Virus record (IMG/VR): IMGVR_UViG_3300025276_000031
Coordinates: 1 to 64,000 of that record
Origin: a virus
Reading direction: 5' to 3' (one strand)
Length of the DNA: 64,000 nt
Shown here: in pieces, positions 40,657 through 44,370 of the stretch
Position numbering within the stretch: position 1 is the stretch's first letter
Layout: the number at the start of each line of letters is the position of its first letter
Notes under the pieces: model-generated
Told to the model about the DNA's origin: nothing
The model's input: the letters and a program-made list of their open reading frames with translations, nothing else
The model's database searches: none
Position numbers and translations under genes: made by a program

Positions 40657-40845
40657 TTACTCTTTGAGTTTTTGTAGAAGTTGGTTCGCTTCTTTAATGG
40701 TCACTAACGCTTGTGTTCGTGTTGAACCGTTGTCTGCGTGACCTGATACGTAGTGTTCCAACATAGCCTTGAGGTCTACGATGACGTTGTAGATATCTTC
40801 CTCTGTTTGGATCATTTCATTAACTTCATGATTGATAGTTGTCAT
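40657..40845 (-). CDS. Small helical protein coupled to the VWA gene
   Basis: A 62-residue all-helical protein in an ATGA overlap with the VWA gene stop. It reads MTTINHEVNEMIQTEEDIYN, VIVDLKAMLEHYVSG and ALVTIKEANQLLQKLKE. Translational coupling suggests stoichiometric production with the zincin-VWA protein. The composition fits a helical hairpin or small coiled coil, perhaps an adaptor; no family was recognised. Confidence 0.6.
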   Translation of the reverse strand: MTTINHEVNEMIQTEEDIYNVIVDLKAMLEHYVSGHADNGSTRTQALVTIKEANQLLQKLKE

Positions 40846-42050
40846 ACTAAGTCCTCCGTACTTACGTATATCGCCTTACCCACATCAGGCTTGGCACTCT
40901 TGTTATCCAAGATAACCCACAACACAGGATGATCCCACGTACCCCAGCCGCCGTACAAGTAACCATCTGTAAACACGATAGATGCTTGCGGGTGTATGTC
41001 ATGCTCCTTCAGGTACTCAGGCACACAGCGCACGTCCGTACCACCACCACCGACAGGATTAGTACGCTCGGCTACGTGATCTATTTCTTCACGTACGTAC
41101 TTCTCGTACCCACATACTTTGGTGTCCCAATAGCTTACGTGTAACTCGTCAGGGTGTACTGTCTTACAGATACCAACCAACTCGCTAATCATAACCTGCT
41201 GTTCACGCGCACCGATAGAACCAGACATATCGTTGTGTTCCGCGATACACTTGACCTTCTCGCTCACACCAGACGGACGGTACTCATTCGACTGCAGATA
41301 GCGTTTGTTAGGGCGTCGATACGTTGAGTAGTCAGACCCAGCACACGTTTCTTGGATGAACTCACGCAACTCGTCACGCCAATTTATCTTATGCTTCAAC
41401 AGTCCTTCGATGTCACGATTGCCACCGCTACCTGTCTTACCTGCTATGATACTACCTTGACGTACCGCCTCGTCAATCTCACGTTCCAACTCACGCTGTT
41501 CTTCGGCGTCCATTTCTTCCGCGCCTTCCCAATCGTGATCGTCTAACGGCGTACCATCACCGTCACCATCTTCGGGCCGACCTTTGGGATTGTCTTTTTG
41601 TTGTTGGTACAGATGCCAGAATATCTTGGCCGTACCCCAACCACGGAAGTCATAGTTGAGACAGCCGCCTTCGATGAACTCCACCCAACCATCTTGACCA
41701 TACTCGTCCATGATCTTGATGTTGATGTCGTGATCCATCGACACGTTGGCGAGGTGGCTGTCTATAGCCCACAGGTGTTTCCACGTTATCAGGTGGCGAT
41801 ACATCTTGTGATAGTTTTCGTGGATCACCACGAACCGTAGCTTGGCATCGTTCAACGGCTCCATGAAAGTTGCGGAATACCATTCGTCTTTGCCGTTGGT
41901 ACACGCGGTTCTGACCTTGGGATTGTCGTACACCACCTCCCGCTTGCCAATCATAATGATACCAGCGAGTGCATGACACTTCGCCATCACGTCAACGACG
42001 GCTTTGGACAGCCGCTGCTCTGGGGTTAACGTCTTACCTATTGATAACAT
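40842..42050 (-). CDS. Zincin-like plus VWA protein (DUF2201/CobT-like), partner of the MoxR ATPase
   Basis: A 402-residue protein. The N-terminal domain contains FVVIHENYHKMYRH at about 72-85 with an intact HExxH (HENYH), the metallopeptidase-like domain of DUF2201 proteins. A Gly/Asp/Glu-rich acidic linker follows (residues about 165-210). The C-terminal VWA domain has a complete MIDAS: DMSGSIG (about 278-284), GGGGTDVR (Thr) and FTDGYLYGG (Asp). Such proteins pair with MoxR AAA+ ATPases and work as metal-chelatase-like or chaperone pairs (as RavA-ViaA or CobS-CobT). The MoxR gene lies 170 bases upstream. The cellular target is unknown. Confidence 0.8.
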   Translation of the reverse strand: MLSIGKTLTPEQRLSKAVVDVMAKCHALAGIIMIGKREVVYDNPKVRTACTNGKDEWYSATFMEPLNDAKLRFVVIHENYHKMYRHLITWKHLWAIDSHLANVSMDHDINIKIMDEYGQDGWVEFIEGGCLNYDFRGWGTAKIFWHLYQQQKDNPKGRPEDGDGDGTPLDDHDWEGAEEMDAEEQRELEREIDEAVRQGSIIAGKTGSGGNRDIEGLLKHKINWRDELREFIQETCAGSDYSTYRRPNKRYLQSNEYRPSGVSEKVKCIAEHNDMSGSIGAREQQVMISELVGICKTVHPDELHVSYWDTKVCGYEKYVREEIDHVAERTNPVGGGGTDVRCVPEYLKEHDIHPQASIVFTDGYLYGGWGTWDHPVLWVILDNKSAKPDVGKAIYVSTEDLV

Positions 42051-42186
42051 TTTTCTTACCTTTCGTTGTTGCTATCGCACGTCTCGCTGAACGATTGACG
42101 GGCTTCATATTTTCTACATCCCGCTTACGGGGTTTATTGCTTCCATGCCCTAGATTTTTAAAGGCTTTAAAATTTGTTTCTCTCAT
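42034..42186 (-). CDS. Small basic protein between MoxR and VWA genes
   Basis: A 50-residue protein from ATG 42186 with AAAGG nine bases upstream; the last 17 bases overlap the VWA gene start. It reads MRETNFKAFKNLGHGSNKPR, then KRDVENMKPVNRSARRAIAT, strongly basic with Arg/Lys pairs. It may bind nucleic acid or act as a basic linker peptide. Similar short genes occur in phages but no function is known to me. The clear ribosome-binding site and position make it a probable gene. Confidence 0.6.
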   Translation of the reverse strand: MRETNFKAFKNLGHGSNKPRKRDVENMKPVNRSARRAIATTKGKKNVINR

Positions 42187-42203
42187 CGACTTACCTTTCT
42201 ACT

Positions 42204-42221
42204 TTCGGGCAGCTGCCCGAA
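42204..42221. repeat. TTCGGGCA-GC-TGCCCGAA palindrome
   Basis: A perfect palindrome directly after the stop (42222-42224) of the MoxR gene and just before the AAAGG of the 50-residue gene. Confidence 0.9.
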
Positions 42222-43328: not shown

Positions 43329-43344
43329 GTTAGTTCTCCGTGTT

Positions 43345-43362
43345 TTCGGGCAGCTGCCCGAA
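43345..43362. repeat. TTCGGGCA-GC-TGCCCGAA palindrome
   Basis: A perfect palindrome in the leader of the MoxR gene, 17 bases upstream of its start codon and eight bases after the stop of the 32-residue membrane peptide. Confidence 0.9.
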
Positions 43363-43369
43363 TGTTAAG

Positions 43370-43468
43370 TTATCGTATTGGATTGACTGTCACGCCGTGG
43401 GCAATGAACAGTAGGATTATAAGGGCTATGAATATACACAGCCCCCCGCGAATGTTTCCGTTGCCCAT
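43370..43468 (-). CDS. 32-residue single-TM peptide
   Basis: ATG 43468 shares one base with the stop of the DUF3150 gene (TGATG). The peptide is MGNGNIRGGLCIFIALIILL followed by FIAHGVTVNPIR: a short glycine-rich head, one membrane helix of about 15 residues and a short tail. It is too short for common gene finders. The stop/start coupling is the main evidence that it is translated. It might anchor, regulate or be the membrane target of the surrounding MoxR module. Confidence 0.5.
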   Translation of the reverse strand: MGNGNIRGGLCIFIALIILLFIAHGVTVNPIR

Positions 43469-44370
43469 CAGAAGTCCAGACTTGGCAGGGCTGCGATAGC
43501 TGCGGTCAGTTCTTTCTGTTTGTTTTCGCGCAAGGTGGGGCTGTTCTTTACCTGCCCAAGCGTAAGACCATGAAAGGTTTGTTCAAGACGTTGGCGCATC
43601 GCTTCCATCTGGCTGTCACCTGTCACGTTACACGTACCCAGCATGTCAGTCAGTTCGAGCGCACGATCAAACACGGTATCGTATAACTTGTTACCTTTGC
43701 CTTCGTCGTTCACATCCAACTGTCGGACAAGCGTCTGCAAATTGTCATGCAGCTTTTGCCATATGTCTTTCATGGCTGCATTTATAGATGACGTGAAATG
43801 CTGCTCGTACTGTGTTTTGATTTGGGTCAGGGCTTCGGTGCCGATGTCTATACGAAAGTCACCACTCTCAGGCAACGGGACATAGCTAACACGGAACCCG
43901 AACTTGTCCTCAAGAGCAGAACGTGACGGATACTCGTCACCGTTCCACATAGCACCCAATGAGGCTTGCGCGTCCATGATCTTCCATTCGTACACGGTCA
44001 GGAAGCCGTCAACTAGCCGTGTGAACTCGTTTTGCAGGTCGGTCATAACTTCGTGGTATTTGAAGTATTGCGCTGTTGTGAGCAGGCGCGACCCGTTGTC
44101 AGACCACGGCATAGTCATAGAATAGTGTATGTTACGGGTGTTGGCTGCGAACTTTTGAACCGCTTTTAGTTCTTGGCAGTCACCTAGTAGGTTCTTAGAT
44201 ACAGACGCAACGCCTTTGTCGGCTTGGTTTGCATCAGTCACTTCGGCAGATGCCTTGTGATCTTTTTTACGTGCTGTCCAGACAGACGCGTTGAAGTCAA
44301 CGGTCATGGCCGATGAACTAATTGATGGCGCATTTGATACCAGCGCCGAGGTGTTTAACATGTCTTGCAT
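43468..44370 (-). CDS. DUF3150-like protein upstream of MoxR
   Basis: A 300-residue protein from ATG 44370 (CGGAGTAAGACA upstream; a longer frame to 44457 covers the promoter and is rejected). It begins MQDMLNTSALVSNAPSISSS and has a central helical part, VDFNASVWTARKKDHKAS, then YSMTMPWSDNGSRLL and FGFRVSYVPLPESGDFRIDI. I recognise this as the DUF3150 style, a family that accompanies MoxR and VWA genes in phages and some bacteria. The C-terminal third is helical. The function is unknown; the consistent neighbourhood suggests a third component or substrate receptor. Confidence 0.75.
   Translation of the reverse strand: MQDMLNTSALVSNAPSISSSAMTVDFNASVWTARKKDHKASAEVTDANQADKGVASVSKNLLGDCQELKAVQKFAANTRNIHYSMTMPWSDNGSRLLTTAQYFKYHEVMTDLQNEFTRLVDGFLTVYEWKIMDAQASLGAMWNGDEYPSRSALEDKFGFRVSYVPLPESGDFRIDIGTEALTQIKTQYEQHFTSSINAAMKDIWQKLHDNLQTLVRQLDVNDEGKGNKLYDTVFDRALELTDMLGTCNVTGDSQMEAMRQRLEQTFHGLTLGQVKNSPTLRENKQKELTAAIAALPSLDF

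Follow-up and report, generated by a model that had tools for sequence, protein, structure and literature searches.

A 64-kb stretch of the 70,256-base IMG/VR virus record IMGVR_UViG_3300025276_000031, referred to here as the window, carries a cassette of three minus-strand genes that encode a DUF3150-like protein, a MoxR-type AAA+ ATPase, and a protein joining a zincin domain to a von Willebrand factor A (VWA) domain. The cassette is complete in every phage relative with sufficient flanking sequence, and homologous trios occur on plasmids. We tentatively favor the reading, at a probability of roughly 0.45, that these genes specify a three-part AAA+ machine of mobile elements that acts on a host-side or DNA-metabolism complex and not on the virion.

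Conservation and domains of the phage cassette

The cassette opens with the gene for the DUF3150-like protein (43468..44370, minus strand; 300 amino acids [aa]), followed by that for the ATPase (42222..43328, minus strand; 368 aa) and, third, by that for the VWA protein (40842..42050, minus strand; 402 aa), in which a DUF2201_N zincin is fused to a DUF2201 VWA domain with a metal ion-dependent adhesion site (MIDAS). An earlier reading made from the letters alone, here called the sequence-only reading, had placed three large genes at these coordinates, and the list of open reading frames (ORFs) agrees. A scan of viral contigs with the ATPase yielded 80 loci, kept from 88 confirmed relatives, and the same-strand order DUF3150-like, AAA, VWA was present in 72 of them. 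In the six loci without DUF3150, the contig begins 1 to 360 nt before the AAA match; in the two without a VWA gene beside the AAA gene (present in 78/80), the contig ends after another 9 or 266 nt. The complete ordered trio was found in 57 of 57 loci having at least 1,100 nt before and at least 1,500 nt after the match. The 57/57 count stands for the habit of a single lineage and not for 57 independent events, as these loci are mutually related. The sequence-only reading had staked its proposal on the three genes being neighbors in relatives, and they are: the three large genes form a true cassette.

Taken alone, the ATPase of the window matched no Pfam model at E ≤ 1, and it matched the PHROG family phrog_1297 ("ATPase") with an E value of 6.9e-32. 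Among 24 members of its family, 18 matched AAA_5, 5 matched AAA_3, and 2 matched bpMoxR, the window protein itself matching none of these. Searched against the PDB, the family profile found midasins as the best solved relatives (E 1e-27 over several domains); NorQ came next (E 6e-5), in company with ClpB and NtrC-type proteins whose E values are similar or better. These family profiles point to the MoxR/midasin/NorQ part of the AAA+ proteins, in keeping with the MoxR assignment proposed from the sequence. Residues were counted over the alignment rows of all relatives, with gapped rows left aside. The Walker A residues G32, G35, and K38 are kept in 79/79 rows, and the Walker B residues D106 and E107, sensor 1 N144, and sensor 2 R229 each in 81/81.

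The VWA protein exceeded the Pfam cut-offs for both of its domains, scoring 51.5 bits against DUF2201_N (cut-off, 23.2) and 43.8 bits against DUF2201 (cut-off, 26.4). DUF2201_N is a putative metallopeptidase family, and DUF2201 is VWA-like. In the phage rows, H77 and E78 of the zincin motif HExxH are invariant (78/78) and H81 is kept in 77/78; both His86 and Asp106 are conserved and are, from the alignment, candidates for the third zinc ligand. The MIDAS residues D274, S276, and S278 are present in 71/71 phage rows and T338 and D362 in 69/69, and the MIDAS is retained in all 24 members of a mixed phage-plasmid set. Structural comparison covered the VWA half and barely the zincin half. By Foldseek, the VWA half matched VWA structures, one of them the MIDAS of human midasin in complex with the ubiquitin-like (UBL) domain of NLE1 (E 8.8e-5), and by VIA it aligned with other VWA domains at Z scores of up to 13.1 (root mean square deviation [rmsd], 2.8; 152 residues). 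The PHROG family to which the protein belongs is named "HNH endonuclease," a label borne by many phage records, and the DUF2201_N and DUF2201 profiles do not bear it out.

The third protein is called DUF3150-like because it scores 21.1 bits against Pfam DUF3150 (PF11348), under the curated cut-off of 24.9. Its open frame extends to 44457, and the ATG at 44370 agrees with the family alignment. Within the family, 15 of 29 members match DUF3150 (best E 1e-6), and the window protein found a cyanophage DUF3150 protein by tblastn at E 2e-24. The predicted structure (mean predicted local distance difference test score, 81.1) matched the annotated viral DUF3150 protein A0A6J7WV52 in Foldseek (E 2.5e-18; TM 0.76/0.78; rmsd 4.6), and on these models the two proteins are predicted to share one fold. 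The best VIA-align result was a designed helical protein (Z 9.3; 95 residues; rmsd 2.9), covering mainly residues 174 to 300; values of this kind are common for helical bundles. We rejected gp94 of phage Dylan (275 aa, adjoining an AAA+ gene) as a homolog: hhalign gave only 0.1% and a profile search of its locus (L098) was also empty. A Foldseek hit to the Dylan protein S5YZA3, which has the same length as gp94, reached E 5.6e-3 with TM values of 0.36 to 0.38. A full-text search of open-licence papers, the scope of all literature searches here, found none on DUF3150.

Plasmid trios and described MoxR-VWA pairs

Relatives of the DUF3150-like protein were found in 3 phage records. Of 72,556 plasmid records, 41 contain one (44 when a plasmid query was used); nearly all of these plasmids are from Burkholderiales, and hhalign to a plasmid protein outside the profile gave 99.9% (E 1.7e-35). 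Some of the DUF3150, AAA, and VWA profiles contain loci on which they were run (L087 to L093 and L095 for DUF3150; these and L002, L003, L096, L097, and L099 for AAA and VWA; L100 for AAA); such rows match by construction and were not used as evidence. Three phage records (OL906435.1, OQ594354.1, and PP438419.1) differ in host name but share a length of 65,014 bases and identical match values; a single genome may have been submitted three times, each time with another host.

We read nine DUF3150-bearing plasmid regions, seven proteobacterial and two from Nitrospirota. All seven proteobacterial regions have the order AAA, DUF3150, VWA, and in six the genes are directly consecutive; in the Simplicispira plasmid, several small genes lie between the ATPase and DUF3150. 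The Burkholderiales plasmid trio is homologous to that of the window in all three genes and likewise lies on one strand, differing in that DUF3150 stands between AAA and VWA instead of ahead of AAA and in having PRTRC genes, often with conjugation genes, alongside. On the two Nitrospirota plasmids (Candidatus Manganitrophus, L091 and L094), DUF3150 is accompanied by DUF1257, DUF2997, and a different AAA+ protein; the stretch read yielded neither a MoxR-type nor a VWA relative. A JAB gene lies upstream on these two plasmids, with PRTRC about 14 kb away.

The other two proteins of the window were also used as queries. The ATPase matched 19 plasmid records, 14 of them DUF3150 plasmids by accession. 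The VWA protein matched 47, tallied by genus and without comparing every accession; 39 come from genera with DUF3150 plasmids, in equal or lower tallies, and 8 do not. Among the records that match the phage AAA or VWA protein, two "plasmids" have phage-like sizes (CP057073.1, 137,565 bases; NZ_CP110465.1, 75,126 bases), and these may be misfiled phage genomes. On a Euzebya plasmid (L097), the MoxR/VWA pair adjoins a cytosine methyltransferase gene and a DpdB-type DGQHR gene. Profile scans of bacterial genome contigs, each run with one or two degenerate patterns, found no DUF3150 relative and a single partial AAA match, in Planctomycetes (L086); given so few patterns, absence from bacterial genomes is not established. 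A Pfam DUF3150 search of three records returned no match even in the two with known relatives, and this search was therefore blind.

The plasmid trio is linked to PRTRC. Among 40 of the 44 DUF3150 plasmids, compared with the 60 best of 378 PRTRC ThiF records, 34 carry PRTRC ThiF, and in 31 of these 34 it lies within 15 kb (median, 8 kb). The other six plasmids (Simplicispira, three Variovorax, and two Rhodovastum) are absent among the ThiF rows listed. Since this comparison took in 40 and 60 records and the plasmids are related, a hypergeometric value for the co-occurrence cannot be read as a fair probability. The linkage recurs in the Nitrospirota plasmids, at 13.6 to 13.7 kb, and the objection that it reflects a shared backbone is thereby weakened, though it still stands. 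A group of operons termed type 6d, described from Burkholderia vietnamiensis and Cupriavidus necator, encodes Ub-like, JAB, E1-like, and E2-like proteins (PMC1779556), and from gene content and organisms we infer that PRTRC is this operon type.

Trees were built from chosen subsets of 26, 24, and 19 rows. In all three, the module of Planktothrix phage Pag-Yong1 and Synechococcus phage MinM2 pairs with that of a Rhodovastum plasmid (support 91/82 for AAA, 99/97 for VWA, and 96/94 for DUF3150) and not with the window family; pairing in every gene tree suggests that this trio moved as a unit between phage and plasmid. In the two cyanophages, the MoxR, DUF3150, and VWA-like genes cluster on a single strand; in contrast to the window, their order is AAA, DUF3150, VWA, and three additional ORFs separate DUF3150 from VWA.

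In several systems, a MoxR ring is described as the motor and its VWA partner as the adaptor (PMC7159879, PMC7911831), and AAA-vWA pairs are reported from archaeal viruses as well (PMC7911831). Within a phage collection, the VWA protein matched 372 records and the ATPase 192. Like the window, phage N4 (Schitoviridae) places an AAA+ protein, gp24 (phrog_1297), beside a zincin-VWA protein, gp25 (phrog_1314), with identical HExxH and MIDAS residues; gp24 and gp25 are listed as "Unknown" and "vWFA domain" among the 14 core genes of 25 N4-like phages in a 2014 paper (PMC4193335). Alignment of the VWA family to N4 gp25 by hhalign gave 100% (E 3e-44), with a profile that holds the N4-like loci L002 and L003 and not N4 itself. 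The ATPases of these two loci are 25% (L002) and 18% (L003) identical to that of the window, and no DUF3150-like gene was found in the N4-type regions examined (L002, L003, and L099). The accessible portion of a CRISPRi-ART paper has RIIA/RIIB of N4 as targets and does not mention gp24/gp25. Group 2.2 jumbo phages show the domain pairing of the window, as compared by description, and the consulted part of that paper mentions no third partner (PMC7824862). Phage FV3, of the rV5 type, has its MoxR gene on one strand and its VWA relative on the other, with about 3.6 kb separating them. RavA-ViaA of Escherichia coli resembles the window in joining a MoxR AAA+ protein to a VWA partner; to our knowledge it has neither a metallopeptidase domain nor DUF3150, so that the DUF2201_N peptidase domain of the window chain would set it apart from ViaA. 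Literature searches found no paper on RavA, ViaA, or MoxR as phage-encoded proteins and no title naming a MoxR-DUF3150-VWA trio. The sequence-only reading had called the role of the cassette undescribed; this agrees with the literature searched, but the MoxR-VWA pair itself is already known from phages, and it is the third partner, DUF3150, that was not found in print.

Intergenic features and neighboring genes

Minus-strand ORFs of 62, 50, and 32 aa do lie between the large genes, and the sequence-only reading had counted them as three small coupled proteins within a six-gene order. Neither claim held. By blastp (E ≤ 1e-3), the 32-aa ORF was found in 6 of the 80 relatives, the 50-aa ORF in 1, and the 62-aa ORF in none, in a search of low sensitivity because the queries are short and diverged copies may be missed. 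The median gaps among the relatives, 47 nt from DUF3150 to AAA and 27 nt from AAA to VWA, leave no space for small genes in many of them. On these counts, the small ORFs were ruled out as parts of the cassette.

A sigma-70-like promoter match (TTGACA-17-TATTGT; 44448..44476, minus strand) lies upstream of the DUF3150-like gene, agreeing at 10 of 12 positions and having an extended -10 with TG ahead of it. The match exists as claimed, but its surroundings are no richer in such matches than chance, with 16 in a 10-kb region against 12.0 in shuffles (standard deviation, 3.4).

The region also has a repeated palindrome, TTCGGGCAGCTGCCCGAA, that would form a hairpin as RNA. One copy lies upstream of the DUF3150-like gene (44390..44407), another upstream of the AAA gene (43345..43362), and a third directly past the AAA stop codon (42204..42221). 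In the dispersed form TTCGGGCA-NN-TGCCCGAA, with up to three mismatches, there are 12 copies between 31862 and 46721 of the window, where none is expected. Each lineage has its own letters (e.g., GTTAGTG-NNN-CACTAAC): a palindrome repeated at least three times was found in 74 of 80 relatives (among loci L004 and L006 to L085) and in 0 of 80 mononucleotide shuffles. In 67 of the 77 relatives having at least 70 nt upstream of the AAA start, the relative's own repeated palindrome lies within 60 nt on the upstream side. The palindrome could be an operator, a hairpin promoter, or a hairpin in the 5' untranslated region. It recalls the 17-bp repeats found in Corndog-type phages, which are described as having no known function (PMC4351075).

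The cassette shares a leftward block (26143 to 46645) with genes for primase/helicase, single-strand binding protein, helicase, exonuclease, and DNA polymerase; the terminase, portal, and head genes of the window run rightward, opposite to it. Downstream of the cassette (37236 to 39172) lie two genes for proteins of 303 and 341 aa that recur in 57/80 and 37/80 relatives, respectively, and for which we found no Pfam match below E 0.08 and no PADLOC match. A gene at 18317 to 25873 encodes what is, judged by its sequence, probably a polyvalent protein; it has 2,518 aa and matches a DarB-like antirestriction family in its C-terminal part (phrog_10089; E 2.9e-32). We considered and rejected the possibility that it is a phage RNA polymerase reading the palindromes: it gave no solved-structure match, and it has a polyvalent look with a DarB-like end.

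Proposed machine and alternative readings

In the reading that we favor, a ring of the MoxR-type AAA+ protein would serve as the motor, and the VWA domain of its partner would grip a substrate or adaptor through the metal ion at its MIDAS. The zincin domain on the same chain could then clip the gripped protein. The DUF3150-like protein would be the third subunit, dedicated to this machine and probably serving as its adaptor or specificity factor. The machine would be produced early or in mid-infection alongside the replication genes or, on plasmids, in the plasmid-bearing cell, and would remodel or cleave a host-side or DNA-metabolism protein complex. Complex formation, timing in the phage of the window, the division of labor, peptidase activity, and a non-virion target are all inferred. 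The trio is found on plasmids, which make no virions, and in the phage it belongs to the replication-side genes. The simplest reading common to both is therefore a host-side or DNA-metabolism target, and virion assembly is not. The MIDAS is intact in the whole mixed set (24/24) and HExxH is lost in two of seven plasmid VWA proteins, so that, by sequence, holding looks universal and cutting optional.

Several observations weigh against this reading. Phage and plasmid versions are only about 20 to 30% identical and may have different jobs. Walker B reads D-D rather than D-E in six of the seven plasmid trio ATPases, and the two plasmid VWA proteins that have lost HExxH with the MIDAS intact (L089, 9914 to 11191; L093, 9965 to 11251) imply that cutting is not essential everywhere. 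The motifs reported as intact for the window are conserved in the case of Walker, HExxH, and MIDAS, but residue 161 of the ATPase is Ala in the window and its five nearest relatives (L006 to L010), in contrast to the Arg found in 75 of 81 rows and in the plasmid, N4-type, and rV5-type relatives. Arg161 is likely the arginine finger, and the window ATPase may be altered or may use a neighboring Arg instead; the nearby Arg159 is kept in 79 of 81 rows. Because this conserved, likely finger residue is replaced, we call the protein MoxR-type and not MoxR. A single clade for the trio-bearing VWA proteins was rejected (approximately unbiased test, P = 0.0074), because the pSYSA pair of Synechocystis groups among the plasmid ones; one trio clade in the AAA tree (support 69/24) was neither shown nor rejected. 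Finally, the role assigned to DUF3150 is guesswork because its fold had no match under E 0.8 among solved structures in the PDB by Foldseek (best, E 0.81).

Virion assembly or maturation, with the ATPase and VWA protein chaperoning capsid or tail parts and the zincin processing structural proteins, seems unlikely to us. It has been proposed for the MoxR and metallopeptidase-vWA proteins of group 2.2 jumbo phages, read as chaperone and cochaperone, by analogy with an archaeal two-tailed virus (PMC7824862); the presence of the cassette in all testable relatives is what a structural factor would show, and in roseophage RPP1 a second structural module is reported near the gp24/gp25 homologs (PMC4193335). 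Against these points stand the homologous trio on virion-free plasmids, the position of the window cassette in the leftward replication-side block and not among the rightward structural genes, and the description of N4 gp24/gp25 as middle transcripts (PMC4193335).

Counter-defense, which the sequence-only reading had suggested, is an equally improbable account. As a phage infects or a plasmid enters the cell, the machine would dismantle or cleave an immune complex of the host or a ubiquitin-like conjugate, which might suit a cassette common to phages and conjugative plasmids, which face the same defenses. No chromosomal trio appeared in the two genome scans, both weak, and the PRTRC link in 34 of the 40 listed plasmids brings in a gene content resembling the Ub-like/JAB/E1/E2 operons of type 6d (PMC1779556). 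However, none of the three window proteins matched a PADLOC family at E ≤ 0.01; near universality in the phage group suits a core function better than an antidefense gene of patchy occurrence, and the PRTRC linkage may reflect a shared plasmid backbone, most of those plasmids being related.

It is rather more doubtful that the AAA-VWA pair is a regulated two-part machine, with the DUF3150-like protein not a subunit but its client or inhibitor. Such a role would fit the Candidatus Manganitrophus plasmids, where DUF3150 accompanies a different AAA+ protein, DUF1257, and DUF2997 in place of MoxR or VWA relatives, and the MoxR-VWA pairs in which no DUF3150 was detected (L002, L003, and N4). Clients are usually kept less tightly than subunits, yet DUF3150 is kept in the cassette in 57/57 testable relatives and also on plasmids.

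By analogy with the midasin MIDAS and its NLE1 UBL ligand, the cassette MIDAS might recognize ubiquitin-like beta-grasp folds within a mobile-element disassembly machine in which DUF3150 is the reader of the mark, although we consider this very improbable. The plasmid trio would then work with the neighboring PRTRC ubiquitin-like system, and the phage trio would act on host proteins tagged by bacterial ubiquitin-like conjugation, stripping or shredding them, or, alternatively, on the conjugating immune complexes themselves. A cofactor or metal insertion machine of the CobS-CobT or Mg-chelatase type, also raised by the sequence-only reading, is the least credible: the BchI and CobS models matched weakly in 8 and 2 of 24 AAA family members (best E, 2e-4 and 0.0049), look like generic AAA+ cross-hits, and include no CobS match to the window ATPase, the VWA partner is a DUF2201_N zincin and not a CobT-type chain, and no CobN-like large subunit was found among the window proteins scanned.

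Under the reading that we favor, of a machine acting on a host-side or DNA-metabolism complex, the DUF3150 third partner and the plasmid trio provide a handle on the N4 core genes gp24 and gp25. If plasmids use the machine too, its target is probably in the host. If the reading is true, it would give a function to DUF3150 and correct the "HNH endonuclease" label on the VWA protein.

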